This document shows, piece by piece, positions 16,823 to 40,067 of a DNA stretch of 64,000 nt; within the stretch, counting starts at the first letter, position 1, and the number at the start of each line of letters is the position of its first letter. A program made the position numbers and the translations under genes. The stretch is from a virus. The stretch is taken from IMG/VR virus record IMGVR_UViG_3300044691_000566, positions 62,001-126,000 of that record, one strand, 5' to 3'. Under the pieces are notes generated by a model, which saw nothing but the letters and a program-made list of their open reading frames with translations, made no database searches and was not told where the DNA came from.

Positions 16823-17022
16823 CCGACACCCGCACCCTCTACGTCCTCGTGAACTACACCGACCACGCCGCCACCCACCAGCGCGGCGAATCCGTCCAGT
16901 TCACCACCGACGACCGCGAAGCCGACGAACTCCTGCGACGCGGCGTCCTCACCACCCACCCCGTACGCCGCCAAGCCGGAGAAAACTCCGCCCGCACCGA
17001 GCCGAAGGCCGACCAGACATGA
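16819..17022 (+). CDS. Small portal-associated hypothetical protein
   Basis: Sixty-seven residues from ATG 16819 (ATGA overlap). The pattern YVLVNYTDH...HQRGESVQF...EADELLRRGVL is that of short proteins encoded beside phage portal genes, with a strand followed by a D-x-E-A-x-x-L-L helix. Function unknown. Confidence 0.6.
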   Translation: MTDTRTLYVLVNYTDHAATHQRGESVQFTTDDREADELLRRGVLTTHPVRRQAGENSARTEPKADQT

Positions 17023-17327
17023 TCGCCAGGGAGGTCCTCGCCCTGATCGAGGGCACTCCCTCGATCACCCTGCCCGGCATCCCCGCCAACGGCATCAACT
17101 GCCAGGGATCCAGATTCCACTCCCCGCGCCCCATGCTCCTCCACCGCGTGGAACTGCCCCACAACCCCGGACAGCCCATCTACCTCTGCGGCACCTGCGC
17201 AGACAACTACCACCTCCTGCACGCCCTGGAACAGCCCCGAAAGGTGCCCTGGCCCGTCCGACGGTGCTTCGGAAACATGATCCGGGCCCTCGTGCCCCCC
17301 AACACCCAGGAGCACGACCGTGCCTGA
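17019..17327 (+). CDS. Hypothetical protein with Cys pair
   Basis: One hundred and two residues from ATG 17019, overlapping both neighbours. A YLCGTCADNYH motif (about residues 55-65) with an earlier Cys near residue 28 may bind zinc. Function unknown. It overlaps the portal start by 8 bases. Confidence 0.6.
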   Translation: MIAREVLALIEGTPSITLPGIPANGINCQGSRFHSPRPMLLHRVELPHNPGQPIYLCGTCADNYHLLHALEQPRKVPWPVRRCFGNMIRALVPPNTQEHDRA

Positions 17328-22768: not shown

Positions 22769-25700
22769 ATGGGGCTGGGACGCCGCGAGGCCGCACACGA
22801 CACCGCGCTGTCGCGCAAGCAGGCCGGGGACTATCCCACCGACTACTCGGTGGGCCAGAAGGTCATGACGGTCGACGGCATCCCGGGCCGTGTGGAGGAG
22901 GTCATCTTCTCCCCGGCCATGGGGGAGGAGTACGACGTCGTCCTGGACGATGGGGCCGGGCGCGGGACGTATGCGCCCTCCCAGCTCTCCCCGTACGCCA
23001 CCAGCACCCACCAGGCCACCGGGACGCACCTGGCCTCGGACGACTACGAAGAACTTACGGACGTCTTGCGCGACAGGCCCGACATCGCCGTGCCGGTGCG
23101 GTTGGGGTCCCTCCAGGTGCAGGCGTCCACGGAGCCCCTGCCGGGATACGGCACGCCGGGGCCGCGTCCCGAGCCGGAGCAGCCGGATGACGACGAGCAC
23201 TACGACCCGCCGTGCGCCTACCCGCACGAGGGGCCGTGCCCGGTGTGGCCCGAACCCCACGACCACCACACGTCGTCCGTGCACCTCGCGATGCCCCCCA
23301 AGTCGGGGAAGCCCCCCGTGGGCGAGTACTCGTACAAGGTGCATCCCTCCAGCGGCCTGTTGACCGGCTACATCAACGGCGAAGAAGCCGGGTACATCAA
23401 CCACACCCCGTACCGGAACGAGGACGAGTACGGCCACTACGAGGACTACGGCGACGGGGACGACAACCACGAGCACCACCCGTTCAGTGCCGGTCACAAG
23501 GCGGGCGCCGTCAAGGTCCACATGCTGCACACCAACCCCGCGCACCGGGGATCCGGTGTCGCCTCGGCGATGATGGACTCGCTCTACCACCACTACCCGA
23601 ACGCCTGGATCAACCACGGCTACCGGACGGACAATGGGTCGACGTGGTGGAACAAGTACGACGAACCGGACCCCGGTCGCAACGTCCACAACGTGAGCCC
23701 CGACGACCACTCGCACCGGCTGAAGAAGCACTGGACGAGCCACTTCGATGTCGACGACGTGGTCAGCGACATGGACTCCCTCTCCCGCACCAACGAGGAG
23801 CAGGGTCACGAGGGCAACGCGCACCGGCAGTGGGATCAGACCGAGCACGGCGGGACCGGCGCCAGTCCTTCCTGTGAAGACTGTGACTCCGACAGGGACC
23901 ACTACTGCCACGACTGCGAAAAGTACTACCCGCACCGGTACGAGGGCGACACACACGGCGATGATTGCCCGAAGCGGTGCGAGGAGTGCGACTCCGACGG
24001 CGAGCACGAGTGCCCCACGTGCAAAGAGTGGGTCCATCACGACGACCTGGAGCAGCACGAGCAGGACCACCAGGACGAGCATGCGGCCGACGACGAGCAC
24101 GACCCCGTCCAGGTCGGCCTGCACAACTCCGTCACGGTCCCCCTCACCCGCAAAGAGCACGACTTCGTGCACAATCCGGCCATCCCGGCGGACAAGCGGG
24201 CCCACCACCTGCTGAACCGGATCGGGCGGGGCGCCATGCCCAGCCACGACTGGGACGTCGACCCCAAGACCTCGCACGAGATCGAGCACGACTCCCACGA
24301 GCAGACCCCCTACTCTCGGGGCCTGCACACGACGGTGACCCTGCATGCCCACCCGCTGAACGAGCACGAGGCCCAGGACGGTTTCGGCAACGACAGCTAC
24401 ACCCGTGAAGGCGAGCGGTCGCACTTCGACGCCGTCCCCACCAAGTTTCGGCTGAAGGGCATGTCCTGGGGTGACGGCCCCCGGGAGGCGGAACATCACC
24501 ACGAGTTCCCCGGCCACGGCCAGCGGGTGGCCACCGCGCCCAGCACGTACAACAGCCAGCCCGGGAACTACCCCCGCAGCCTCAAGCCCCTCCTGCGCCA
24601 GCCGGGCCACGAGCGCCCGGCCCCCGAGGTCCACCCCGAGCAGGGCAAACTCTTCGCCCGGAAGACGGCCGCGACCCGTGCCGACTTCCAGTTCGAGCAC
24701 GAGGACACCGACATCCGTGGCATCAAGCACGGCTACAAGAACCACCTGCGGGCCATCCACCCGGAGACGGGGGAGCACGCCGGGACGCTGACATACTTCG
24801 CGCCCACGCGTAAGGGTGCCCCGGTGATCGTGGACGATCTGACGACGTCGCACCCGGGCGCGGGCTCCGCGCTGATGGACGAGGTGGAATCCCGGCACCC
24901 GGGCAGCCGGATTCAGCACGGCGTGGACAAGCCCATGAGCAAGGGCAAGCCGCACTACGACCACTCGGACTATGGCAAGGCCACCGACTGGTCCGCCCAC
25001 TACCCGAACCTGCCGGAGCAGGTCCACCGGGGCCTGAACGTGCGCCTGGAGGGTTCCGACGCCCGAGCGGTGACGCGCGGGGAGGGGTCGGCCGCCGACC
25101 ATGCCCAGATCCTGCACAGCGCCTTGCGCGATGGCGGACCTCTCGGCATGCACTGGTCGTCGGACGAGGAGACCAGCCGGAACTTCGCACACCGCAACAT
25201 TCGGGACCCCCGTAAGGACGTGCCGGTAATCCTGCACGCCGACCGGCCCGCCCAGAAAGACCTCGAAACCCGGCCGAACGTGCTCAAGAACAACGGGGTG
25301 TGGATGCACGACTACGAGCACGGCGACGCCGAGGTGCCGGTGCGCCGGGGCCGGTCGGTGAACCTCCGGGGGATCTCCTGGAAGCCGGACGCCCCGCACT
25401 CGGAGGCCGACGCCAGCGGCTGGGTGCACCACACCTTCGGCGAGGGCAGTCAGCACACTGCCGCTCTGTACGCGGCCGTCGGGGGCGAACCGGTCTACCG
25501 GGGCTTGAACCTCGGGCTGGCGAGCGACGAGGACGTGGAGCATCTGCACCGGGACCCGGTGGGGTACCTGAACCAGAAGGGCTTCCGGCCCCACGAGGCG
25601 GGCATCCACTGGTCCACTGACCCGTACACCGCGCACAACTTCGCCCTGGCCCACGATGAGGACGACGACGACGCCACTCCGCACACCCACGGGGTGATCC

Positions 25701-27871
25701 TGCACGGCCGGGCCGAGCCTCAGCACGTTGTGCAGCACGGTACCCCGGAGTGGGACGACTACGCCGATCAGTACGAGATCCACGGGGAGAACAGTCCCGA
25801 GCAGGAGCGCACCGTACGCACGGGTGCCCCCGTGCAGATCACCCACGCCACGGCGGTCTCCAAGCCGGTATGGGGCGACGAGGGCCGTGAGACCGAGGTG
25901 CCCTGGGGGAGCCAGGTCACCGCCAACCAGCAGGACGGCTTCCTCGCCGACACCGCCGACGAGGCCCCCGAGGAGGAGATCGTCTCCCAGGGCGCCTTCG
26001 ACCCGTACGCCATCCTCACCACCGCTGCCGCCGATCCGGAATTCCGCTTCCACGTCACGGCCGCCTGGGCCGACGTCCGCCGCAAGGCGAAGCGGATCCG
26101 CTCCGAGGGCGGCGTACGCATCACCCTGGCCACCGACGGCGTGGTCTTCGGCGAGGTCAAGGGCGACCACCACGTCTACGAGACCGGCGTACAGCGCTTC
26201 CCCGGCACCAAGCACTCCGTGGCCACCTACACCTGCGGCTGCAAGTGGGGCGCCTACCACTGGGGCGCCCCTGACGACTTCAGCCACTTCGCCGGACGTA
26301 TGTGCTCCCACGCCCTCGCCCTCCAGTACGAGGCCCAGTCCCGGGGCATGTTCGGCCGGGACGTGGAGGTCGACTCCACCAAGCCCGAGTGGGTCCCGAA
26401 GAAGGTCGTCCTCCGCTACGACATCGACGACGGCACCAACCGGATGGTGCGCTCCAGCACGAAGACGGCAGCAGCAGAGCCCAATCCGCACGGTCTGTAC
26501 CTGCGTTTCGGCAGGTGGCCCCACGACGAGCGCTCCACCAACAACATCACGGGTGCGAAGGAAGACGGGGTCAGCGTCTACGACCTCGATCATCACGGCC
26601 GCCCCATGGACCCGGACCCGGACGACAGTCGGACCAACATCGACGACGGGGACCGCAACTGGCCCAAGGAGGAGATGCACGGCCGGGTGGGCAAGGCCGA
26701 GCGCGACCGCAAGTGGGGCAATGACCATCCTGACCGTCAGGCCCACATCGTGAGGGGCGACATCGCAGGCTTCGGTCACGACAATGAGCCGCTGCTCAAC
26801 AACGTCGAGCGGATCGGCGACTGGATCGATCACCGGCATCTGTTCTTCAGCGGCAAGCCGCATCCCCTCGCCCGCAGTGAGGACCACGACGACTATGAGC
26901 CGCCGGAGGAGGAGCCCCAGCACCGTACGGCTGCCCTGGAGGTCACCCCGCTGGTGGCCCTCGCGCAGTGGTCCCGTGCGCAGGGCGACGACCCGGAGGA
27001 GTTCGCGTTCCTCCTGGGCATGCACGGCCTGACGGCCGCGATCAGCTCCCCCTGGGGCGAGCCGCAGGCCCCGGCCGCCAACTACACCCCGGGACCGACC
27101 AAGCCCCGCAACCCCGCCGAAAACCCCGGATCCACCGGCTGGGCCACCCAGTCCGACCCCGACAACTGGGATTCGATCAACCCCAACGACCTGGGGGACC
27201 GCGTCGCGGCCCTGGACGAGTTCCTGTTCGAGGGTGCCATCCCGCAGGAGATCGCCCAGTCCGACGACCCGATGGCCTCCTCCCCGGGCACTGAGGACAC
27301 CCCCCTGGAGAACGGCGTGACGGCGTACTGGCGGCACATGGAGGACGTGGCGATGACCACGGAGGCCATCTCGATGCTGGGGGAGCAGGACGGCCCCCTC
27401 TGGCCGTCCGGGCCCAAGGGCGGCCGGGGCGGTCCGATGCCGCCGGGACACGCGCAGATGCCGGAGCACGAGGAGCTGACCCCCGGAGCCGAGGCGGATC
27501 TGCATGTGCAGCCGGAGGGGGCGCTTCCGTACACCGACGGCGACGGCCCGGACCTGACCGACGACGAGTCCCTCACCCCGTCCCGGACCGCCTCCCTGGG
27601 CAGCAGCATCCTGGAACAGTTCCAGGCCACCGCCTCCCACTTGGCCCCCGGCGGCTCCACCAGACCCTCCGGACGCGGGGGTGTCGCGGCGGAGATCGCC
27701 GCCCAGGCCCGGGAAACCCTCAGCAAGATCGCGCTGAAGGACTACAGCCCCGCAGAGCAGGCTGCGATCATCAATGAGGGTGTCAACGTCAGGGCCTCCA
27801 ACCTGGACCGCCTGGACGTGACCGGCACGCACTACGAGTCTCAAGAAGACGAGGACGGGATATGGCCGTAA
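22769..27871 (+). CDS. Giant multidomain (polyvalent-type) virion protein
   Basis: A 1700-residue protein from ATG 22769 with CAGGAGGA at 22758-22765. Modules in order: a GNAT-like segment with [17 protein letters not shown] (about residues 245-305); a Cys/His-rich zinc region (368-430); three ART-like regions, at 450-570 (weakest), 748-890 (VHRGLNVRL ... [15 protein letters not shown]) and 904-1030 (VYRGLNLGL ... [14 protein letters not shown] ... SPEQERTV, matching R / STS-type / ExE); a second acetyltransferase-like segment (637-730); and a SWIM zinc finger CGCKWG ... [10 protein letters not shown] (about 1150-1190). The rest is linker. It fits the phage polyvalent-protein theme: enzymes injected with DNA. 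Activities are inferred from motifs. Confidence 0.7.
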
Positions 27872-29787: not shown

Positions 29788-30627
29788 ATGCACAAGGCGG
29801 GATGGTTCGACCGAAACCAGATGAAGGTGCTGAAGGCCAGCATCCTGCTGGTTTTTGCGATATTGCTGCTGGGCGGCGTCTACATCTCGCACGAGATCCG
29901 GGCCGCCACCCAGCGGGCCGATGTCGCCACCCAGCGGGCCAACAACAGCGCCCGACAGGCCAATGACAGCGCCCGAGCGGTCGTCTCGTTGTCGAAGAAC
30001 CTGGAAACCTCGCGCAAGCAGCTCACCGATCACGGCATCAAACCCTCCGCGCCGTCGGCCAAGACCGTGATCGAACAGGTCGGCGGGATCCCGGGCGCCG
30101 CCGGATCCCCGGGCCGCAACGGCGCTACCGGCAGTTCCGGCCCGTCAGGTCCCCCCGGACCCACGGGGCCCGCAGGAGTGCAAGGACCCCTCGGCCCGCT
30201 GGGACATACCGGTCTCCCCGGACCCACGGGCATACCGGGGATCAACGGGACCAACGGCAGCAACGGAACAGACGGCAAGCCCGGAGAGCCGGGCATTGTC
30301 GGCCCCACCGGACCGGCGGGAGCCGCTGGAGCACAGGGGCCGCAGGGCGACCCGGGGCCCGCTGGACCGACGGGGCCTGCGGGGCCTTCAGGGCCGACAT
30401 GCCCCACCGGGTATTCGATGCAGACCTCGCCCACCGACCCGTATGCGCAGGTGTGCCGACAGGACGGGGCGCCCTCCCCGAGCCCGACCCCCAGTCCTTC
30501 ACCGACCACCGCAGCATCTTCAACACAGTCCCGGCTCCTCTCCGAGGGACCCGCATCCCCCCGCCAGGAGGCACCCGTTCTGATGGCGGGAATGTATGCG
30601 ATCGTCTCCGAGAGAAAACGCCTGTAG
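29788..30627 (+). CDS. Membrane-anchored collagen-like protein
   Basis: A 279-residue protein from ATG 29788. One N-terminal span at about residues 17-36 (ASILLVFAILLLGGVYI), a helical neck with AT/SARQ repeats (38-75), then about 100 residues of Gly-X-Y collagen repeats (104-208: GPPGPTGPAG and similar), a Cys-containing cap and a Ser/Pro/Thr linker. Topology suggests the collagen rod is outside the cytoplasmic membrane. Collagen-like repeats are common in phage fibres but unusual in an N-anchored membrane protein within a lysis cassette. Function unknown. Confidence 0.75.
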   Translation: MHKAGWFDRNQMKVLKASILLVFAILLLGGVYISHEIRAATQRADVATQRANNSARQANDSARAVVSLSKNLETSRKQLTDHGIKPSAPSAKTVIEQVGGIPGAAGSPGRNGATGSSGPSGPPGPTGPAGVQGPLGPLGHTGLPGPTGIPGINGTNGSNGTDGKPGEPGIVGPTGPAGAAGAQGPQGDPGPAGPTGPAGPSGPTCPTGYSMQTSPTDPYAQVCRQDGAPSPSPTPSPSPTTAASSTQSRLLSEGPASPRQEAPVLMAGMYAIVSERKRL

Positions 30628-30640
30628 GCAGGGGGCCAAC

Positions 30641-30916
30641 ATGGCCGCACCACCCGCCCGCCCGTCGCAGAACACCGGCCTGATCGTCCTGGTCGTCGGC
30701 ATCTTCATGATCATCATTGCGTTCGGCGCGGTGACGTACCTCAACGGGAACGTCAACACCGTCAAACAGAATCAGACCAAGAACTCCCAAGTGGGCCAGA
30801 CCGAACGCACCGCCCTGACCGCTATCACCTGCGCCCTGTGGCATTCCGTCGGCACCCCCACCAGGATCGACACCACCCTGCGCGCCTCCGTGGAAGCCGT
30901 CTGCGGCAAGCCCTAG
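30641..30916 (+). CDS. Small single-pass membrane protein
   Basis: Ninety-one residues from ATG 30641 with GGGGG at 30631-30635 as a poor ribosome site. One span at about residues 13-35 (LIVLVVGIFMIIIAFGAVTYL), then a polar exterior with two Cys that may pair. Located just upstream of the endolysin. Likely lysis-related by position. Confidence 0.65.
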   Translation: MAAPPARPSQNTGLIVLVVGIFMIIIAFGAVTYLNGNVNTVKQNQTKNSQVGQTERTALTAITCALWHSVGTPTRIDTTLRASVEAVCGKP

Positions 30917-30934
30917 TCCTGTCGCAGACAGCCC

Positions 30935-30955
30935 GAGCCCTTTAAAGGGGTGAGG
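30935..30955 (+). repeat. Structural-gene leader motif
   Basis: CCCTTTAAAGGGGTGAGG within 30935-30955. Here it includes the palindrome CCCTTTAAAGGG, 19 bases before the endolysin ATG. Confidence 0.5.
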
Positions 30956-30974
30956 ACGACCCCTAGGAGGGCGC

Positions 30975-31811
30975 ATGACCGTCAACGGAATCGACGTCTC
31001 CGCGTACCAGAACAGCACCTACTCCACTGCGGGCCTCGGCTTCGTCATCGTCAAGGCCACCGAGGGCACCAGCTATGTGAACCCCGCGCACGCCGCGCAG
31101 ATCCAGCACGGCCGCGACGCCCACCTGGTTCCCGGCCACTACCACTTCGTCCGGCCGGGCGACATGAAGGCCCAGGCCGACTTCTTCCTCCAGCACGCCG
31201 CCCCCGGGCCCGGTGACGTCCTCGCCTTCGACTGGGAGGACAAGGCCGTCTCCGGCGGCGACAAGGACGTCTGGCTCAAGTACGTGCAGGCCAAGGCGCC
31301 CACGCACCGCGTGCTGCTGTACTGCGACCTGGACTTCTGGACCAACCGCGACCACACCGGTTTCACCGCCGACGGCCTGTGGATCGCCGATCCCAGCTCC
31401 CCGGCCGGGCACCCCGCCGTCAAGCACGCCTGGGTGATGCACCAGTACAGCTCCAGCGGCGGCATCGACCACAACGTGGCCGCGTTCGCCGACACCGCAG
31501 CCCTGCGCACCTGGGCCGCCAAGGGCACCCCCGCCGTCCAGCCGCACCCGCAGCAGCACCAGCCCTTCCCGGGCGCCTCGTGGTTCACCACGGGCCGCAG
31601 GAGCCCGATCGTGGCCGCCATGCACGACCGCCTGGTGGCCGTCGGCTGCAACCACTACACGAGCAACGCCAACAAGGACGTCATCGGCTCCGGCGACGTG
31701 GCCTCCTACCAAGCCTGGCAGCACAAGCTGGGCTACACCGGCCCGGCAGCCGTCTGGCCGCCCGGCCAGACGAGCTGGGACAAACTCCAGATCCCGAAGG
31801 TGGCGCGATGA
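30975..31811 (+). CDS. Endolysin, GH25 lysozyme
   Basis: A 278-residue protein from ATG 30975 with TAGGAGG at 30963-30969. Residues 1-185 are a glycoside hydrolase 25 barrel: GIDVSAYQ with Asp7, KATEG near 27-31, the catalytic strand FDWED with Asp86/Glu88, and a Gln-Y-S strand (HQYSSSGGIDHN). A Pro/His linker at about residues 190-203 leads to a C-terminal wall-binding domain (WFTTGRRSPIVAAMHDRLV ... SYQAWQHKLGY), of the type seen in streptomycete phage lysins. It cleaves the MurNAc-GlcNAc bond of peptidoglycan. The holin follows with a 4-base overlap. Confidence 0.93.
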   Translation: MTVNGIDVSAYQNSTYSTAGLGFVIVKATEGTSYVNPAHAAQIQHGRDAHLVPGHYHFVRPGDMKAQADFFLQHAAPGPGDVLAFDWEDKAVSGGDKDVWLKYVQAKAPTHRVLLYCDLDFWTNRDHTGFTADGLWIADPSSPAGHPAVKHAWVMHQYSSSGGIDHNVAAFADTAALRTWAAKGTPAVQPHPQQHQPFPGASWFTTGRRSPIVAAMHDRLVAVGCNHYTSNANKDVIGSGDVASYQAWQHKLGYTGPAAVWPPGQTSWDKLQIPKVAR

Positions 31812-32074
31812 CGATCCCGACCCCGGTCCCGGCTCCCGACCACCGCGCGTCCACCGCGTGGAAAATCGAGGCGAAGGTCATCGCCTCCACGACGGCCACC
31901 TTCGCCGTCTCCCTCGTCCTGGCCGTCCTCAACGCCGTCCAGGGCAACCACGACCTGCTCGGCTCGATGCCCACCGCCCTCCAGACGGTCATCCTGCTCA
32001 TCGTCCCCACCGCCATCACCTTTCTGGGTGGATACCTAGCTCGTCATACGCCCCGGGCACCCGCCGGAAGCTAG
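31808..32074 (+). CDS. Holin
   Basis: Eighty-eight residues from ATG 31808 (overlap with the endolysin). Two hydrophobic spans at about residues 22-45 (VIASTTATFAVSLVLAVL) and 58-78 (TVILLIVPTAITFLGGYLA), short polar ends and a basic tail (RHTPRAP). This is the two-span holin pattern found directly after endolysins in actinophages. It would form membrane lesions that release the lysin at the end of infection. Confidence 0.88.
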   Translation: MTIPTPVPAPDHRASTAWKIEAKVIASTTATFAVSLVLAVLNAVQGNHDLLGSMPTALQTVILLIVPTAITFLGGYLARHTPRAPAGS

Positions 32075-32085
32075 CGTTCAACACG

Positions 32086-32122
32086 AAGGACCCCGGGATC
32101 CCCCACGTTCCCCGGGGTCCTT
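32086..32122 (+). terminator. Intrinsic terminator of the lysis cassette
   Basis: AAGGACCCCGGG 32086-32097 pairs perfectly with CCCGGGGTCCTT 32111-32122, followed by TGCTGTCT. Confidence 0.85.
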
Positions 32123-32144
32123 TGCTGTCTGCCCCCCGGCCAGT

Positions 32145-32162
32145 ACCGGGAAGGGGTGGAGG
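32145..32162 (+). repeat. Structural-gene leader motif
   Basis: ACCGGGAAGGGGTGGAGG, 7 bases before the ATG of the prohead protease gene. It doubles as the ribosome site. Confidence 0.5.
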
Positions 32163-32168
32163 TGGCGA

Positions 32169-35100
32169 ATGCTCAAGTACGCGAGCGCCCAGATCATGAC
32201 GGCCGTGATGGCCCCGCAGGACGCGGGCCGCCGTGAGCTGCGCCGGTTCAGCCACCGGCACCACTTTTCGTATGAGGTGCGACCCGGGTACCTGTACGTG
32301 CGCTCTCGCGCCATCTCCAGCCGCTGCAACGACAACTTCGACGAATTCCCCGCCGAAGAACTCGAAAAGGGATACCGGACTTTCATCGGCAAGCCGGTCT
32401 TCGTCAATCATTCGAACGAGGACCACCGCCGGGCCCGGGGTGTGATTATCGACGCGGTCCTGCACAAGGACAGCAACCGCGACGGAACGAAAGACTGGTG
32501 GGTCGAAGTCCTCCAGGAGGTCGACGCCCTGCGCTTCCCCCGCCTGGCCGCCGAGATCCTCAACGGCAACATCGCGCGGACTTCGATGGGCACCGACGTG
32601 TCCCACAGCATCTGCTCCGCCTGCGGCAACCGGGCCACCACTCCCGCCGAATACTGCACGCACATTCCGGCATCAAAAGGAATGATGCTCTACCGGACCA
32701 CCGCGTCCGGCCAGAAGGTCGGCGAAGTCATCCGCGAGACCTGCTACGGCCTGAAGTTCTTCGAGAACTCGCTGCTCGTGGAGCCCCCGGCGGATCCGAC
32801 GGCGTATTTCACCGGGGTGGACGACCGGGGCCTGAAGGGCACCGCCATCCAGCGCGACCAGGCATCCCGCGCCGCCGACCCCTTCTTCTATGCCTCCACC
32901 CAGAAGACCGCCGCGCAGGTCCCGGGGCTGTCCTGGGACGAGGTCGGTGAGCGGCACCCCGAGATCTACGGCGACTCGGAGATCCACGGGGAGCGCGCCG
33001 AGGGCGCTGACGGGGAGATGATCGGCTCGGCGGCCAACGACCTGGCCCACTCCACGCCGGACGACCCCGACGCCGAGGCGCACTCGATCCACGACCTGAC
33101 CTTCCACCGCGCGATGATCGACCCGCACGCCATCGACCACAAGCGGAACGGCATCAGCGACGGCCGGGTGGCCTCCGCCATCCAGGGCTACAGGGAGCAC
33201 CCGGAGCAGATGCCGCCGGTCGTGCTCGTGCACCGGCACGGCGTCTTCCAGGTCGCCGACGGCCACCACCGCACCGAGGCCGCCAAGGCTGTGGGAATGA
33301 GCAAGATCCCCGCCTACGTGACCAAGTCGCCCTACCCCCGCACGCCCAGCGGCTGGGATGCCAAGGGCCCCTACCACGGGGCGGAGACGACCCGCTGGAG
33401 CCCGCCGCAGGTCCGGCCCAGGAAGGACCCGGGGCAGACTCCCGAAAGTTCCGGGTACACCCAGGACCGCATGTTCGAGGCCGCGAAGAAGGACCCCCGC
33501 TTCGCCGAAGTCGGCCTGAAGCAGGACGACAAGGGCCACTACGTGACGACGCACCGTGCGCGCTCCGACTCCTACCCGACCCCCGAAGCCATCCCCCAAT
33601 CGGTCGTGGACAAGATCGCCGCCACTGGCTCCCGCACCACCCTGGACGAGCTGATGACCGAGGGCACCAAGCAGGCCGCCCAGCAGTACCCCAACCCAGC
33701 GGACCACCCGTGGTTCAAGGAGGCCGGGCTCAGTCACGAAAACGTCATCCACCACTGGGACCTGGCCTCCCCCGAGGAGAAGGCACAGGGCAAGCGCTGG
33801 TACCCCGACGCGCACCTGGTGGCTCGATCCATTGCCCGACTGGACACCCGCATCAAGACCGACAAGGAGGCCGCCCACAAGGGCGGCGGGGTCCTGAGCG
33901 CGTACAGCCCGCAGCAGAACTGGTGGGCCAACCAGCACAACGCGGCGCGGTCCTTCCACGAGCAGCGGGCCCTGGGCAAGGGCGAAGGCATCATGATCAT
34001 GGCCAGCCACGCCAAGGCGGCCCAGCGGATCATGGACGGCGAAGACAGCCAGAAGGTGCTGAAGGGGCCGAAGACCTCCGACTTCGCATCCCTGATCGAG
34101 CACGGCGGCAACGACGAGCACGGCAACCCCTCGCAGAAAGTCGTCGTCGACCGGCACGCCCTTTCGGTGGCCGCCGGACGCCGCCTGAAGGCCGACGACG
34201 TCAACGGCTTCCCCTCCCAGAGTCGGCACTACTACGAGCACGCCGCCGAGCACTACCGCCGCGCGGCAGCCGTCATCTCCGACCGGGAGGGACGCACCGT
34301 GCCCCCGCACGAGGTCCAGGCCACCACGTGGCTGGTGCGCCAGCGCCTCAACGCCGAACAGGACAGCTCCCCCGGCCAGAAGGGGCGCGACTCCCTCCAG
34401 CGCAAGCACAAGGACGAGTGGCAGGGCCTGACCCATGAGCACGCCCCGGAACTGCACGAGCCGCCCACGAACTCTCATGTGGCCGGGGCCAACGGGGACC
34501 TTCCGGAGGGTCTGCACTTCACTTACCACGGTGGACCGGACTACAAGTACCACGTACTGCGCGCCCACACTCCTGATTACAAGCAGGCCGGGAAGTTGGA
34601 ATGGACGAAGAAGCGTGAAGAGTACTGGGACGAGAAGGGGCCCGCCGACTTCCAGCCCGACAAGCAGTGCGACCACTGCAACATGAACGGTCACGGCGAT
34701 TCCTGGCACGTCAAGCCCGCCGGTCACATCAATTGGATCGGCGTGGTCCCTGAATATCAGCGTCGGGGGGTGGCTTCGGCCATGCTGGATCACGCTGCGG
34801 CCAATTACGACCCGGCTCCGGTGCACACTGCGCACACCACCGACAGCGGCAAGGGCCTCCAGCAGAGCCGAAGTGCCGTCCTGCCGAACGACTCCCAGCG
34901 CCTGCTGGGCCGCAAGCTGGCCTACGGCGAGCAGCGGGCCCCCGAAGACGTCGACACCCTGCGTGAGGACGCCTGCCCGGTGTGCGGCGACCGTGACGCC
35001 TTCAACGGCGCCACATGCCAGGTGTGCGGCTACGTCGCGCCCCCGAAAATGTTCCAGGACCCGGACTTGGAGAAGGCCCGGCAGATGGACCTGCGGAAGG

Positions 35101-35864
35101 ACATCGCAGAGTTCAACGATCCGGCCAGCCCCGACCAGCTCGGACCCGACGGCCAGCCCGTCGCCAACCCGATGGACCCGGCAGCCCTGGACGAGAACGG
35201 CAACCCGGTCAACCCCGACGCTGCGGACCAGCAGGCGCAGCCCGGCACGCTCCCCGGTGAGGTACAGGCCGAGGTGCAGCCGGGCGGTGACCCGATGGGC
35301 GGAGGATCGCCCATGGACCCCGACGCGCTCGGGCAGGACGGCCAGATCCCCGAGGAAATGGGTGCGCCGGTCGATCCGGCCATGCTCGGGCCCGACGGCC
35401 AGCCGCTGCAACAGCCCGGCCAGCAGCAGATGGTCGGACCGGACGGGATGCCCATCGGTCCGCAGGCGCTGCCGCCTGACGCGACCACCAGTGAAGGCCA
35501 GCCGTTCACCCCGGGGCCCGACATGCCCCAGGGACCGGGCCAACCGGCAGGACCCCAAGGCCCGGCCGGGCCCGAGGACCTGGACCAGGACGGACAGATC
35601 CCCAACCCGGACGCGGGCCAGGGAGTCCCCGGAACCCCCGGGGACGGTGTACCGGATCTCCAGTGCCCGGCGTGCGGCTTCACCGTGGACGCCACCGCGC
35701 CGGTCTCGGTGGACATGGACACCTCGATCATGCCGCCGAGCGGACAGGCCACCCCCGACGGCGTCCAGGCGGGCGACGTCTGCCCCAACTGCGGTACCGC
35801 ACAGCTCATCAGCCCCGCCGAGGGGCAGGGCGAAGTACCGCCTCCGATGCCCGCACAGATATGA
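32169..35864 (+). CDS. Prohead protease fused to ParB-like, DUF7178-like and GNAT modules
   Basis: A 1231-residue protein from ATG 32169. Residues 1-265 are a capsid maturation protease: TFIGKPVFVNH with His81 and RTSMG with Ser139, plus a CSAC ... C zinc pair, as in actinobacterial myovirus proteases. Then a ParB-like segment, VADGHHRTEAAKAVG (about 310-385); a DUF7178-like domain with QKVVVDRHALSVAAGRRL (about 498-738); a GNAT-like segment with VVPEYQRRGVASAML (about 785-910); a ribbon CPVC ... CQVC (931-957); a Pro/Gln/Asp-rich tract; and a last ribbon CPAC ... CPNC (about 1163-1205). The protease trims scaffold and capsid. The extra parts may be released and packaged. Confidence 0.82.
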   Translation: MLKYASAQIMTAVMAPQDAGRRELRRFSHRHHFSYEVRPGYLYVRSRAISSRCNDNFDEFPAEELEKGYRTFIGKPVFVNHSNEDHRRARGVIIDAVLHKDSNRDGTKDWWVEVLQEVDALRFPRLAAEILNGNIARTSMGTDVSHSICSACGNRATTPAEYCTHIPASKGMMLYRTTASGQKVGEVIRETCYGLKFFENSLLVEPPADPTAYFTGVDDRGLKGTAIQRDQASRAADPFFYASTQKTAAQVPGLSWDEVGERHPEIYGDSEIHGERAEGADGEMIGSAANDLAHSTPDDPDAEAHSIHDLTFHRAMIDPHAIDHKRNGISDGRVASAIQGYREHPEQMPPVVLVHRHGVFQVADGHHRTEAAKAVGMSKIPAYVTKSPYPRTPSGWDAKGPYHGAETTRWSPPQVRPRKDPGQTPESSGYTQDRMFEAAKKDPRFAEVGLKQDDKGHYVTTHRARSDSYPTPEAIPQSVVDKIAATGSRTTLDELMTEGTKQAAQQYPNPADHPWFKEAGLSHENVIHHWDLASPEEKAQGKRWYPDAHLVARSIARLDTRIKTDKEAAHKGGGVLSAYSPQQNWWANQHNAARSFHEQRALGKGEGIMIMASHAKAAQRIMDGEDSQKVLKGPKTSDFASLIEHGGNDEHGNPSQKVVVDRHALSVAAGRRLKADDVNGFPSQSRHYYEHAAEHYRRAAAVISDREGRTVPPHEVQATTWLVRQRLNAEQDSSPGQKGRDSLQRKHKDEWQGLTHEHAPELHEPPTNSHVAGANGDLPEGLHFTYHGGPDYKYHVLRAHTPDYKQAGKLEWTKKREEYWDEKGPADFQPDKQCDHCNMNGHGDSWHVKPAGHINWIGVVPEYQRRGVASAMLDHAAANYDPAPVHTAHTTDSGKGLQQSRSAVLPNDSQRLLGRKLAYGEQRAPEDVDTLREDACPVCGDRDAFNGATCQVCGYVAPPKMFQDPDLEKARQMDLRKDIAEFNDPASPDQLGPDGQPVANPMDPAALDENGNPVNPDAADQQAQPGTLPGEVQAEVQPGGDPMGGGSPMDPDALGQDGQIPEEMGAPVDPAMLGPDGQPLQQPGQQQMVGPDGMPIGPQALPPDATTSEGQPFTPGPDMPQGPGQPAGPQGPAGPEDLDQDGQIPNPDAGQGVPGTPGDGVPDLQCPACGFTVDATAPVSVDMDTSIMPPSGQATPDGVQAGDVCPNCGTAQLISPAEGQGEVPPPMPAQI

Positions 35865-35872
35865 GGAGAGGC

Positions 35873-36106
35873 ATGCCCAGGCCGATCGACGCAGAGCTGA
35901 ACAGCTCACCGTTCCGCATCAACTTCGAGGTCACCCTCGCCGACGGCACCAGCGTGGCGTCCCGGGGCTTCATCCCGGAGGAGAGCTGGAACGCCCTGAA
36001 CGACGAGCAGCGTCTCGCCGAGGTGAGGGCCGGTCTGGAGGCCACCACGGCGGCCATCTTCGCTCTGGTCGAGAAGCACGGCTTCCCGGACGTGACCGTC
36101 GGATGA
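35873..36106 (+). CDS. Small hypothetical protein
   Basis: Seventy-seven residues from ATG 35873 with ATGAGGAGAGG at 35861-35871. A beta-hairpin (FRINFEVTLADGTSVASRGF) followed by a helix. Function unknown. It sits between the protease and scaffold candidates, in the capsid operon. Confidence 0.6.
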   Translation: MPRPIDAELNSSPFRINFEVTLADGTSVASRGFIPEESWNALNDEQRLAEVRAGLEATTAAIFALVEKHGFPDVTVG

Positions 36107-36321
36107 GCGGCGACATGGCGACCACGGCCGTGATTACGGTCGAAGGCATCGAGTACTACCCGTGGGACGTCTGCGGTGCCCCCGACGGCTGCGTGATGGG
36201 CCGCGAGCGGGGCTACGTCAAGAACGGCGTGATTCACGTGCGGGCGGACATTCAGCCGCCCGCCGAAGGCTGGGGCGAGCACATCTGTTCGGGCACCTGC
36301 TCTCGTCCTGTCCTGGTGTGA
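36103..36321 (+). CDS. Small Cys-containing hypothetical protein
   Basis: Seventy-two residues from ATG 36103 (ATGA overlap). Four or five Cys (DVCGAPDGC, HICSGTCS) could form a zinc site. Mostly beta. Function unknown. Confidence 0.55.
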   Translation: MSGDMATTAVITVEGIEYYPWDVCGAPDGCVMGRERGYVKNGVIHVRADIQPPAEGWGEHICSGTCSRPVLV

Positions 36322-36325
36322 CCCA

Positions 36326-36344
36326 GGCCCCGTAAGGGGTGAAG
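36326..36344 (+). repeat. Structural-gene leader motif
   Basis: GGCCCCGTAAGGGGTGAAG, a clear CCCC-GTAA-GGGG mini-hairpin followed by TGAAG, about 50 bases before the ATG at 36393. Confidence 0.55.
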
Positions 36345-36392
36345 ACCACCGCCCACGGCCTCCGTGAGCCCGCATCCGAGGAAGTACATCTC

Positions 36393-37313
36393 ATGGCATC
36401 TGGTAACCGCCCGCTCATGCAGGCCATGGCGTCCCAGCAGAAGACGCTGGAGGCCACCCGCCAGCACATGGCCAGGGTCACTGCCCGCAACGCCGAACTG
36501 GAGCGTCAGTTCGCCATCCAGGGCCTCCAGCTCGCGTACGTGGCGCGGCTGGCGGGGGTGACGAAGGAGGTCGAGGCGATCAAGCGCCAGGCCGACATCG
36601 ACAACCCGGCGCAGCCCGTGCCCAACCCGCCCTCGGAGGCCCCGGTGGAGACCACCGAGCAGGCCGCCACCCCGGAGGCGTACGACAACCCCAACCAGAT
36701 CGGGCAGACCCCCGGAGCCAACCAGGGCGTCGCGGCCGAGACCACCGCCACGCCGATGGACCCGGGCGTGACCCTGCCGACCGCGCCGTACAACCAGCTC
36801 CTCAACGTCTCCGCCCCGGTGGCCGGAACCGAGACCCACACCCCGCCGGACACCACGCGCATCGAGACCGACGTCCGCGTGGGCGACCCGATGAACCCGG
36901 AGACGGCCTACCCGCTCAACCCGGCGTTCGGGCCGTCCGCGCAGCAGGGCACCACCCCGCCGCGTGACGGGGAGATGAGCCAGACCGGTTCCCGCAACCG
37001 GACCCTGGCCTCCATGCGCCTGGCCCGTCACCGGATCACCGCCGGTCTGGTCCGGGGTGACGAGTTCGCGGTGGCCGCCTCCATCGAGGGCGACCAGAAC
37101 CTGAGCGACGCGATGATCCGCCACGAGATCGCCACCCTGTCGCAGGTGACCAAGGCCGCCGCGCGGCAGGCCCGGCCGCAGGGCCTGGTGCCGCGCTCGG
37201 CTTCCGGTGTGCAGCGCACCACGCCGTCCCTGGTGACGCAGCCCGCCCCCATCACGTCGGTGGCGGGGTCCGTGGGCGCCTACGACGAGGACGCCGAGAG
37301 CCTTTTCGACTAG
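36393..37313 (+). CDS. Probable capsid scaffold protein
   Basis: A 306-residue protein from ATG 36393 with GAGGAAG at 36378-36384. Residues 10-65 are a coiled coil (QQKTLEATRQHMARVTARNAELERQF). The middle (75-200) is Pro/Thr/Glu-rich and probably disordered. The C-terminal 100 residues are helical and basic. That layout, and the place between protease and decoration/major capsid genes, is what phage scaffolds show. No sequence match is claimed. Confidence 0.6.
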   Translation: MASGNRPLMQAMASQQKTLEATRQHMARVTARNAELERQFAIQGLQLAYVARLAGVTKEVEAIKRQADIDNPAQPVPNPPSEAPVETTEQAATPEAYDNPNQIGQTPGANQGVAAETTATPMDPGVTLPTAPYNQLLNVSAPVAGTETHTPPDTTRIETDVRVGDPMNPETAYPLNPAFGPSAQQGTTPPRDGEMSQTGSRNRTLASMRLARHRITAGLVRGDEFAVAASIEGDQNLSDAMIRHEIATLSQVTKAAARQARPQGLVPRSASGVQRTTPSLVTQPAPITSVAGSVGAYDEDAESLFD

Positions 37314-37328
37314 GGTCTCTCCTCGGAT

Positions 37329-37364
37329 CGCAGCCCCCTCACAGCGCTATGGGAGGGGGCTGCG
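37329..37364 (+). terminator. Intrinsic terminator before the capsid genes
   Basis: CGCAGCCCCCTC 37329-37340 pairs perfectly with GAGGGGGCTGCG 37353-37364, followed by GCATGTTTTC. It separates scaffold and capsid messages. Confidence 0.8.
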
Positions 37365-37402
37365 GCATGTTTTCAGGCCCTTGATCCTGTCTTCCCCGGC
37401 CC

Positions 37403-37425
37403 GAGCCCTCGAAAGGGGTGAGAAG
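37403..37425 (+). repeat. Structural-gene leader motif
   Basis: CCCTCGAAAGGGGTGAGAAG (within 37403-37425), about 70 bases before the ATG at 37494. A second inverted repeat, CGGACAT ... ATGTCCG (37439-37471), follows in the leader. Confidence 0.5.
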
Positions 37426-37493
37426 GGCCTGTCTCGTATCGGACATCGAGCAGACGGCCCATATGTCCGAATAGACGAGATGGGAGGGAAAGC

Positions 37494-38018
37494 ATGCTCC
37501 GTACCCGTATGGCGACTTCGTACATCAAGCGTACGATTCGACCGCTTTATGGTTGGACGCAGGCGACGCCCGCTTCCTGCTTCCTGGACGCAGCTTGGGA
37601 CCGTTCCGTCCCGATCTGGCCTGGAATGGTGTTCATGAAGACCGCCGGGGAGAACGTGTCCCTGATAGGCGCGACCAGCAGCATCCCCTACGGCCTGGGC
37701 GCCCTGTACGTCGGCGGCGACGGCATCGACGAGCCGCTGGACTCGGGCATCAACACCTTCTCGGTGTGGAAGCTCGCCCCCGACGCCGAGTTCGAGATCC
37801 TCGCCCCCGCCTTCGACACCACTCAGGCGTGGGTCGAGCCGGGCGACGGCACCGAACAGCTCATCTACGGTGCCGCCACCGGCACCGGTCGTGGCAAGCT
37901 CGCGCTCGCCACCAACGGGTCGGTCGTGACTGCGCTCACCGTGCAGCCGGTCGCCCGCCTCCTGAAGGTCAACTCCGCGACGAAGATCACCATCGGTGGA
38001 CTTCGTCAGAAGTACTAG
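37494..38018 (+). CDS. Probable head decoration protein
   Basis: A 174-residue protein from ATG 37494 with GATGGGAGGGA at 37480-37490. Beta-rich with Gly turns (GALYVGGDGIDEP, VEPGDGTEQLIYGAATGTG), compact and without charge clusters. Phage decoration (gpD-like) proteins are of this size and lie directly before the major capsid gene, as here (13 bases). The function is inferred from position, size and composition. Confidence 0.6.
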   Translation: MLRTRMATSYIKRTIRPLYGWTQATPASCFLDAAWDRSVPIWPGMVFMKTAGENVSLIGATSSIPYGLGALYVGGDGIDEPLDSGINTFSVWKLAPDAEFEILAPAFDTTQAWVEPGDGTEQLIYGAATGTGRGKLALATNGSVVTALTVQPVARLLKVNSATKITIGGLRQKY

Positions 38019-38031
38019 GAGCTGACTGACG

Positions 38032-39021
38032 ATGACGACTCAGACTCTCGCCGCCACCTCGTCCCTGCGCGGCCGTATCGCGCGCAAGTCCGACGACTAC
38101 GCCAACGCCATCATGGAGCGCCGCAAGAGCAACGCGCCGCTCACCCATGAGGCCAAGGTCAAGAAGATGGCGTTGATCCTCTCCGACGAGACCAGCGGCA
38201 TCCGCCGCCTGGGCGTCGGGATGGTCGGCCCCATCCAGCTCAAGCTGCGCTACCAGGGCATCACCAGGAACGTGCTGGTGGAGGACCCGGTTACCCCGGG
38301 TACCCCCGTCGAGTACGACGTCTGGGATGATCTTGGTCAGGCGTACATCATGTCCGGCACCGAGGGCGAAGTCCGTGTGACTCCGTTCGAGGGCAAGCGC
38401 GTTCCGGTGCGGTTCTTCCGTATCGCCTCGCGCCCGGCCATCCGCAAGGAGGACCTGTTCTACCTGCGTATCAACGCAGTTGAGCAGGCCCAGGACGAGA
38501 CCAAGCAGGCCATCCTCAAGCAGGAGGACACCCGCCTGCTCGTCCTGCTCCAGGCGGCGCTGACCGACTACGCCACCCGGCCGGACCACACGGTCACCCC
38601 GAACCACAACATCACCGAGGCGTCGGGCTACCTGACGCCGGGCTCGCTGTACTCGGCCGTCGCCATGACGGACATGCACGAGTTGCAGAGTGCCAGGATC
38701 TTGATCAACCCGTTCGACTTCCGGGACCTCTACCGCTGGGACATCAACCAGACCGGCTGGGCGTTCAAGGACCGGGTCGTCGCGGGCGAGACGATCACCT
38801 CGTTCGGCGAGTTCCAGATCCAGCGGTCGATCATCGTGCCGCAGGGCAAGGTCTTCCTCACCCCGGAGCCCAACTTCTTGGGCGTTTTCCCCGTTTTGTA
38901 CTCCTTGGACGTCGAGGAGAACCACATGGTGGAGGCGTTCTGGAAGGGCTGGGTGTTCGACGAGATGGTGAACATGACCATTTTGAACGCAAGGGGAATT
39001 GCCACGATTACCAAGGCTTAG
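38032..39021 (+). CDS. Major capsid protein
   Basis: A 329-residue protein from ATG 38032 (AGGAGCTGACTG upstream). Basic N-arm (RGRIARKSDDYANAIMERRK), then a beta/alpha core with EGKRVPVRFFRIASRPAIRKEDLFY, and a conserved-looking C-terminal strand series (GQFQI-like GEFQIQRSIIVPQGKVFL). Family placement rests on the gene order protease, scaffold, decoration, capsid and on similarity to major capsid proteins of actinobacterial myoviruses as I remember them. It would assemble as hexamers and pentamers of the HK97 fold. Confidence 0.82.
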   Translation: MTTQTLAATSSLRGRIARKSDDYANAIMERRKSNAPLTHEAKVKKMALILSDETSGIRRLGVGMVGPIQLKLRYQGITRNVLVEDPVTPGTPVEYDVWDDLGQAYIMSGTEGEVRVTPFEGKRVPVRFFRIASRPAIRKEDLFYLRINAVEQAQDETKQAILKQEDTRLLVLLQAALTDYATRPDHTVTPNHNITEASGYLTPGSLYSAVAMTDMHELQSARILINPFDFRDLYRWDINQTGWAFKDRVVAGETITSFGEFQIQRSIIVPQGKVFLTPEPNFLGVFPVLYSLDVEENHMVEAFWKGWVFDEMVNMTILNARGIATITKA

Positions 39022-39036
39022 TCCCTGGTGTCCGGT

Positions 39037-39573
39037 TTAGCCCAAGTGGCCCCACCGGGCACCAGTGACGAGTCGGGAGATCGCGCCCTGGCCAACCCCG
39101 TAGACGGCGGCGAGAGCCCTCTGGCTTTCGCCGCCGTCGGCGTATCTGCGGCGTATCTCCAGAACCTGCCACTCCTCCAGCTTGGCGGCAGCGTTGCCTG
39201 ACCCTCGTGAAGAGGTGCCGTGCAGGATCTTGTCAGCTTCGTTCTCCCCAGAAGTGCCCCAGACGAGGTTCTCCTGCCGGTTGTCCGTAGAGTCACCGTT
39301 CAGGTGGCGCCCCTCCTGGCCCGGCTCCGGAAGACCCACAAAGGCCCCCAGGACGAGCTGGTGGACCAGGCGCTGGGCTCGGACACCGTCGATCGACATC
39401 ATGATGTTCAGGTAGCCCCCGCCGTGACGGCCGGGCTTGAGTATGCGGCCCTGGACGTAGTGCCGCCGGGTCTGGCGCGACAGACTGCGCACGCGGCCAA
39501 GCGACGACACCTCGTAGAACTCATCGAACTCCGGTATGGGGACCGGCTTCCACTCTTCAGTCATGCGAGGCAT
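39037..39573 (-). CDS. HNH homing endonuclease (NUMOD4-HNH type)
   Basis: A 178-residue minus-strand protein. The N-terminus WKPVPIPEFDEFYEVSSLGR is a NUMOD4 motif. HNH_3-type residues follow (LVHQLVLGAFVG ... HLNGDSTDNRQENLVWGT), and residues about 125-170 are a helix-turn-helix (EEWQVLEIRRRYADGG). It would nick or cut DNA at a target near its insertion site, copying itself into phages lacking it. It converges on the major capsid gene, 15 bases from its stop. A minus promoter with TTGACG and a spacer GATGTCAAG lies at about 39580-39602. Start could be 39573 or 39564. Confidence 0.85.
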   Translation of the reverse strand: MPRMTEEWKPVPIPEFDEFYEVSSLGRVRSLSRQTRRHYVQGRILKPGRHGGGYLNIMMSIDGVRAQRLVHQLVLGAFVGLPEPGQEGRHLNGDSTDNRQENLVWGTSGENEADKILHGTSSRGSGNAAAKLEEWQVLEIRRRYADGGESQRALAAVYGVGQGAISRLVTGARWGHLG

Positions 39574-39612
39574 CTTGTAGTACAGGACTTGACATCGTCA
39601 ACTCCAAACGAA

Positions 39613-39713
39613 GGCCCCCGGATTTAAAAATCCGGGGGCCGTTCCCCTGCCCAGCCATGCCACGCCCAGCCAAACCCCACCGTGCCGGGCCATACCATGA
39701 GGCCCTGACTCTA
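39613..39713 (-). ncRNA. GGNNN-repeat RNA unit, minus array unit 5
   Basis: TGATAGAGT (TAGAGT is plus 39708-39713), ten GG pentamers (GGTAT, GGCCC, GGCAC, GGTGG, GGTTT ...), then a hairpin 39613-39640 whose centre is GGATTTAAAAATCC. No -35 box of TTGACA type. Confidence 0.6.
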
Positions 39714-39728
39714 TCATCTCCAACGACT

Positions 39729-39844
39729 GAGGGGCTCCCCGTAGGAAGCCCCTCCCATGCCTTGCCACGCCGAACCGGGCCCTGCCTTGCCCTGCCAGGG
39801 CATGCCAGGGCCTTGACCCTGTCATCTCCAATGGCACCTGTCAA
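39729..39844 (-). ncRNA. GGNNN-repeat RNA unit, minus array unit 4
   Basis: Full promoter: TTGACA (plus 39839-39844), exactly 17 bases, CAGGGT (plus 39816-39821). Ten or eleven GG pentamers follow, then an 11-bp hairpin 39729-39754 closed by a C(UACG)G tetraloop. Confidence 0.65.
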
Positions 39845-39850
39845 ACGACT

Positions 39851-39973
39851 GAGGGCGCCACCCCGAAGGATGACGCCCTCCCATGCCCCGCCTGGCCCTG
39901 CCAGACCTCGCCACGCCGAGCCTCGCCCAGCCCCGCAAGACCTGACTCTGTCATCCCTGCCCGCATCTGTCAA
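39851..39973 (-). ncRNA. GGNNN-repeat RNA unit, minus array unit 3
   Basis: Full promoter: TTGACA (plus 39968-39973), 17 bases, CAGAGT (plus 39945-39950). About ten GG pentamers (GGCTG, GGCGA, GGCTC, GGCGT ...), then a 13-bp hairpin 39851-39880 with a C(UUCG)G tetraloop. Confidence 0.65.
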
Positions 39974-39977
39974 AGCT

Positions 39978-40067
39978 GAGGGCGATCACCCGTAGATGAT
40001 CGCCCTCCCATGCCCTGCCCGGCCAAGCCGAGCCGCGCCATGCCTAGCCCTGCAAGACCTGACTCTA
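39978..40067 (-). ncRNA. GGNNN-repeat RNA unit, minus array unit 2
   Basis: TGATAGAGT (TAGAGT is plus 40062-40067), eight or nine GG pentamers, then a hairpin 39978-40007 with stem GAGGGCGATCATC and a UACG loop. The stem is nearly the same as that of the plus-strand unit at 44710, so the two units are related copies. Confidence 0.6.

Follow-up and report, generated by a model that had tools for sequence, protein, structure and literature searches.

The plus-strand gene at 32169..35864 of the 64,000-nucleotide stretch of viral DNA analysed here (the window; IMG/VR record IMGVR_UViG_3300044691_000566, positions 62,001 to 126,000) appears to encode a head-assembly polyprotein, in which a head-maturation protease is followed by a hypervariable cargo slot and by a zinc-ribbon module that works with a scaffold-like protein, and through which the cargo would be loaded into the phage head. 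We give this reading a probability of roughly 0.6. The gene starts with ATG, stays open without an internal stop over 1231 amino acids (aa) and corresponds to 94169-97861 within the 159,746-base virus record. A preliminary description, made from the letters alone, had joined a capsid protease to ParB-like, DUF7178, GNAT-like and zinc modules in one frame, and domain scans and models bear this out; at least two disparate catalytic or binding domains (protease, ParB fold, DUF7178, GNAT-like) lie in one chain. Structure prediction, run for the protease and for residues 235-785, gave assemblin-type, ParB/sulfiredoxin and helical DUF7178 folds.

The protease occupies residues ~28-222 (32250..32834, + strand), as judged from PHROG matches, conservation and a structure model. 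phrog_2774 matches residues 28-213 (E 4e-65) and phrog_18299, 'head maturation protease', matches residues 57-206 (E 1e-23). A wider scan yielded 81 unique loci (its second viral scan contributing the best 80 of 95), and His81 and Ser139, the catalytic residues originally named, are invariant in all 81, phage G among them. The N-terminal placement of the protease held; its proposed extent of 265 residues was somewhat too long, the domain ending near residue 212-222. E199 is likewise invariant (81/81) and is a candidate third catalytic residue, with D58 and D209 equally invariant, as are the presumed zinc-site residues C149, C152, C163 and H165. With an AlphaFold2 model built from 30 aligned sequences (mean predicted local distance difference test score, pLDDT, 78), the best structural match was T4 gp21 (Z 9.1; 127 aligned, 2.9 Å); the next 30 matches were all herpesvirus proteases, and the first unrelated one had a Z of 6.0. 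Foldseek alone gave no match with E <1e-3 for this model (top match pseudorabies virus protease, E 0.075), and a PDB sequence search with the protease profile returned nothing useful. The domain is confirmed as a head protease of the T4 gp21/herpes assemblin type, which we infer to cleave itself and to cut head proteins. The phage G relative, gp19, stands alone (300 aa), which suggests that the tail was added; the idea that the protease normally stands alone was set aside. In Eggerthella phage LE2-3 (L003) the head protease is interrupted by an intein of the Hint/homing-endonuclease type (protein residues ~139-526), inserted a few residues past the catalytic Ser.

Comparison of relatives revealed constant ends and a variable middle. 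In a first set of 45 proteins, comprising homologous frames from 37 viral contigs together with those of named phages, the constant stretches were the protease (window residues 1-226) and the C-terminal zinc module (915-1229). Architectures were counted in 74 unique loci with at least 58% protease identity, among which the order protease, cargo, zinc, scaffold has no exception. Slot length varies between 42 and 1514 residues; the longest is that of L046, and in L020 and L016 (42 and 60 residues) the protease is almost directly joined to the zinc module. Eleven unique loci with at least 81% protease identity present seven differently ordered slot contents: ParB-mid-DUF7178-GNAT in the window ('mid' being a small recurrent, phrog_3666-like module), ParB-mid-DUF6582-DUF7178 (L010), mid-ParB-DUF7178-DUF6582 (L059), mid-ParB-NUDIX (L011), ParB only (L013, L017), DUF7178 only (L015, L018, L019) and no recognised module (L020, L016). 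Against the window's capsid protein, those of the other ten show 92-96% identity over 124 to 329 residues; slot modules have thus been acquired, lost and rearranged against a near-constant capsid protein. Across the 74 loci, DUF7178 was found in 49, mid in 14, ParB in 11, NUDIX in 8, DUF6582 in two and a GNAT similar to that of L046 in two. Twenty proteins chosen from 35 were scanned with Pfam, L003 over its whole chain and the others over the cargo region or tail; the outcome agrees in kind, several being without any family. The union of protease and enzyme-like cargo in one frame is confirmed, and the earlier idea that the latter is cargo gains strength from this swappable insert between constant ends.

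In the window the slot spans residues ~223-917 (32835..34919, + strand), as delimited by comparison with relatives. Its first recognised module, residues 311-392 (33099..33344, + strand), was detected as ParB-like by PHROG (E 1e-3) and by TIGR00180 (E 6e-4, far under the family's cut-off). A model of residues 235-785, built from 24 sequences (mean pLDDT 76.6; mostly >90 within DUF7178), related this module to sulfiredoxin, Noc and ParB with a Foldseek probability of 1.00 (best E 5e-3) and Z up to 7.8, and residues 311-392 are thus predicted to adopt the ParB-N/sulfiredoxin fold. The mid module follows at residues 441-489 (33489..33635, + strand; PHROG) and DUF7178 at residues 524-724 (33738..34340, + strand; Pfam E 2.6e-33). 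The helical DUF7178 model matched H. pylori MagIII (Z 8.5), queuosine-salvage DUF2419 (8.4) and many OGG1 structures (6.6-7.7), values which for an all-helical domain may reflect a common arrangement when Z is <13. A PDB sequence search with the DUF7178 profile found nothing. The conserved GPKT and VDRHA motifs would be compatible with the HhH hairpin and with the catalytic Asp known from HhH-GPD glycosylases, and one phage annotator has labelled a stand-alone relative 'glycosylase'; judged from the model, a glycosylase-like fold is likely. In L023, L032, L037 and L114 the second frame, which bears the zinc module, has its own DUF7178-like copy upstream (conserved DRHA segment). The GNAT-like module (motif A region, residues ~840-881; 34686..34811, + strand) fell under the Pfam cut-off in the protein scan and scored 22.0 bits against a cut-off of 20.7 in a genome search. 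The Pfam scan showed no zincin family, and the MPTase typical of polyvalent proteins was likewise unseen.

DUF7178, which has matches in other phages too, is a stand-alone gene, away from the structural genes, in Microbacterium phage Cece and can therefore work as an ordinary intracellular phage protein. This is in keeping with a scheme in which the cargo is cut off and acts late in the producing cell, e.g. on host or phage DNA, the fusion providing co-expression and timed release. Co-expression requires no fusion, however, and the slot is flanked on both sides by head-assembly parts, with head proteases expected to be active in the prohead; we regard the scheme as quite improbable.

Purifying selection was observed in every module compared, cargo included, by 16 codon comparisons with our own Nei-Gojobori script. 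The ratio of nonsynonymous to synonymous substitution (dN/dS) was 0.06-0.19 for the protease (4 pairs), 0.13-0.59 for the ParB region (5 pairs), 0.08-0.44 for DUF7178 (5 pairs) and 0.19-0.25 for the C-terminal module (2 pairs). Because the cargo codons are under purifying selection the cargo is probably made, and from these sequences it appears unlikely that the downstream part is never made. The same result bears on whether the frame is a reading artefact, produced by misassembly or chance joining of genes, as could be supposed from relatives that carry the same parts in two overlapping frames. We reject this, given the 1231 open codons with selection in each module compared, the near-identical loci from different samples (e.g. 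L012/L013, L014/L015, L036/L037) and the homologous fusions in isolated, named phages.

The boundary between cargo and C-terminal module is itself conserved, and pattern comparison placed it at KLAYGEQRAPEDVDTL (residues 916-931; 34914..34961, + strand). After nine near-duplicates were dropped, 36 proteins remained, 23 of which bear the ribbon pattern; AP..VDTLR stands ahead of the ribbon in all 23, and [ASG][YF]GE lies directly upstream in 22, whatever the cargo. In the split relatives L030 (MRSFAYGE), L061 and L034, AYGE comes only a few residues into the second frame, and this boundary therefore separates units. Since the protease of phage SPN3US cuts after Glu (A-X-E), Glu921 is by analogy the leading candidate cleavage site. 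The motif [KR]TA is enriched in the slots of 29 loci (47 occurrences against 10.2 expected from shuffles), frequently at the edges of modules, and may possibly be a second processing motif; we treat it as a lead only. Neither [KR]-x-A nor [KR]TA was accepted as a universal cleavage motif: the loci are related, [KR]-x-A occurs within folded domains and low-complexity linkers can yield it. A conserved Glu cleavage site in the N-arm of the capsid protein was looked for and not seen. In L038/L040 and L039 the frame with the zinc module shares its first part, in a different register, with the last part of the cargo frame, and no ATG, GTG or TTG precedes its junction motif; either a programmed frameshift or an unusual start is possible there.

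The constant C-terminal module (residues ~918-1231; 34920..35861, + strand) consists of a zinc ribbon, a Gly/Pro/Asp-rich linker and a second zinc ribbon. The ribbons, at residues 931-954 and ~1164-1212, give weak Pfam matches but show a clear cysteine pattern and clear conservation. The zinc modules had at first been counted as cargo like the rest, a view that we abandon, the ribbon module being a constant C-terminal partner. It is part of the polyprotein frame in 59 of the 74 loci and of a downstream frame in 12; two of the remaining three end at a contig edge and one shows no zinc module. The scaffold-like protein of the window is encoded by a separate gene and not in the same chain as the protease (324 aa; 36339..37313, + strand), and was recognised by its position, coil-like N-terminus and disorder-prone middle. 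A domain related to it is fused C-terminally to the polyprotein in 24/74 loci, so that the cargo there sits between protease and scaffold; in 43 it is encoded further downstream, and in the other seven the stretch retrieved did not show it. Twenty of the 24 fused loci have a strong Shine-Dalgarno-like in-frame start before the scaffold-like domain, in long stretches where acidic Glu/Asp codons mimic such a signal, and an internal start giving the scaffold alone is only suggested by these sequences.

On the reading that we favour, the C-terminal end would dock the chain into the scaffold core during prohead assembly. At maturation the protease would free itself by cutting and then cut the linkers, at sites most likely including the conserved [AS]YGE directly before the zinc module. 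The zinc/scaffold part would exit with the core, and some cargo (here the ParB-fold, DUF7178 and GNAT-like units) would remain in the head alongside the DNA, enter the next host at injection and act on host DNA, proteins or defences. Cargo could be exchanged without altering protease or scaffold, and effectors would change while one loading route is kept.

The strongest indirect precedent, by analogy, is gp245 of SPN3US. The papers drawn on, besides PMC5512222, are PMC10052503, PMC12810830 and PMC7411985. Reportedly, gp245 cleaves a propeptide of 64 residues off its own C-terminus, and a signal directing it to the prohead probably resides at that end; the head-protein propeptides of SPN3US undergo several cuts and for the most part do not stay in the head; and DarA of P1 is cut by the head protease Pro. 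The present protein shares its protease fold with gp245 and T4 gp21 and a C-terminal extension with gp245, and the SPN3US protease also cuts proteins that are later ejected. In SPN3US the extension has 64 residues, and proteins destined for ejection are encoded by genes of their own and cleaved in trans; here the chain itself carries, in cis, swappable enzyme-like modules of up to ~1500 residues in total. An SPN3US-like protease tail would have turned into a loading dock. The fate of the SPN3US propeptides, and the scaffold-like domain fused in 24 loci, could also point to an oversized structural propeptide, with modules that are spacers or DNA- or protein-binding assembly pieces, later degraded and expelled and without effector role. 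A structural spacer would hardly show enzyme families (NUDIX, GNAT, DUF7178, ParB fold) that come, go and reorder, nor be reduced to 42-60 residues in two relatives with a near-identical capsid protein, and we consider this explanation unlikely.

Several points weigh against loading of cargo into the head. Packaging, cleavage and ejection of the cargo are steps that we infer, and the cargo may act in the producing cell. Propeptides generally exit the head, so the slot could be discarded; two near-empty slots imply that assembly can do without cargo; and the cargo changes faster in evolution than the protease does. In A-Y-G-E, Ala is at P4 and not at P3 as in SPN3US, L027 has ALND in place of [ASG][YF]GE (1/23), and the module boundaries do not all share one cleavage motif. 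The label 'scaffold' reflects position and sequence character, with no named family in Pfam or PHROG, and the match between the C-terminus of the cluster C mycobacteriophage proteins and the window's scaffold-like family is moderate (hhalign probability 64%, E 7e-5, 48 columns).

Multidomain injected phage proteins are already known as polyvalent proteins (Iyer et al., 2017; PMC5512222), which that paper takes to be packaged, processed and injected. Likeness to them lies in a multidomain late-gene phage protein with disparate activities, ParB-like and GNAT types included. The assemblin-like peptidase is always C-terminal in those proteins, as a reported pattern rather than a definition, unlike the N-terminal domain here, which leads into a zinc/scaffold end; the words 'scaffold' and 'Bxz1' are both absent from the paper's main text. 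By analogy, the present protein may be delivered into the host with the DNA. An N-terminal protease with a swappable slot adds to the polyvalent proteins. In the literature covered, from which subscription journals and preprints are mostly absent, we found no description of such a protease and slot before a zinc/scaffold end, and work on DUF7178, on phage protease-cargo or protease-scaffold fusions and on virion proteomics of these phages, with the same coverage, does not describe the architecture. There is also a parallel with MuF fusions, in which a constant head domain bears varied effectors.

A broader proposal, which we hold tentatively and at slightly below even odds, is an exchangeable effector-loading cassette in the head protease, that is, a conserved protease-zinc/scaffold chassis of many actinobacterial phages. 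The chassis would take almost any enzyme module, with docking to the scaffold, release by self-cleavage and ejection into the next host. In herpesvirus UL26/UL26.5 and lambda C/Nu3, an assemblin-type or head protease is fused to a scaffold that is also made alone. The 24 fused loci, many with a Shine-Dalgarno-like start, resemble these pairs, unlike the window with its separate scaffold-like gene; neither pair is known to hold an enzyme as cargo in between. A further comparison is with the gp97-type proteins of Bixzunavirus, Phabba, Skog and Phrappuccino (Breeniome gp97, 1370 aa), which occupy the same place before the cement and capsid genes and have a protease 42-47% identical, a long variable tail and a faint zinc-module match. 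They differ in cargo (PF25735, L5 gp82-like, in Breeniome and Skog) and in the moderate C-terminal scaffold homology. These proteins are annotated as hypothetical or as LysM-like endolysin, the cluster C version being mostly 'hypothetical protein' in databases. Cluster C mycobacteriophages, which are easily grown, carry this distant version, and the idea is therefore directly testable.

Phages inject proteins, yet for varied effectors the way into the head often lacks a clear explanation. If true, a slot fused in cis between constant ends would account for effector loading with no need of targeting signals of their own; what the slots of many phages contain (DUF7178 in 49/74 loci) would be candidate early effectors, and a chassis for packaging chosen proteins into phage heads could be suggested.

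The polyprotein gene lies in a late-gene context, between a GH25 endolysin (30975-31811) and the capsid genes. Close to it are genes for the portal protein (17320-19425), the scaffold-like protein, a cement/decoration protein (PF23968 by Pfam scan; 37494..38018, + strand) and the major capsid protein (38032..39021, + strand; phrog_2522, E 6e-102). Two small overlapping plus-strand frames, 35873-36106 (~77 codons) and 36103-36321 (~72), occupy the 474-base gap between the polyprotein and scaffold-like genes, a gap of a size absent from most relatives. A promoter/terminator scan of 35700-36500 and an Rfam scan of 30000-40000 found nothing. Close relatives were located in Streptomyces sp. RLB1-9, A0642 and MH60, on contigs or plasmid records ~152-157 kb long, which makes Streptomyces or a near relative the probable host of the phage.

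The preliminary description had also held that domains are shared with other large virion-type proteins. This applies to GNAT, which matches the modular 1700-codon frame at 22769-27871 (+ strand) and, with three matches above cut-off, a 1657-codon frame outside the window (G000 15753-17120); it fails for DUF7178, which occurs once in the record. The large neighbours with shared domains would presumably be virion proteins. A tail-spike-like protein is listed between the portal gene and the 22769-27871 frame. The idea that parts of that frame encode an ADP-ribosyltransferase was dropped when Pfam gave no support. Its residues ~1046-1250 and 1386-1699 are conserved among relatives, the remainder being variable, and its counterpart by alignment in cluster C phages is the LysM-like gp96 family.

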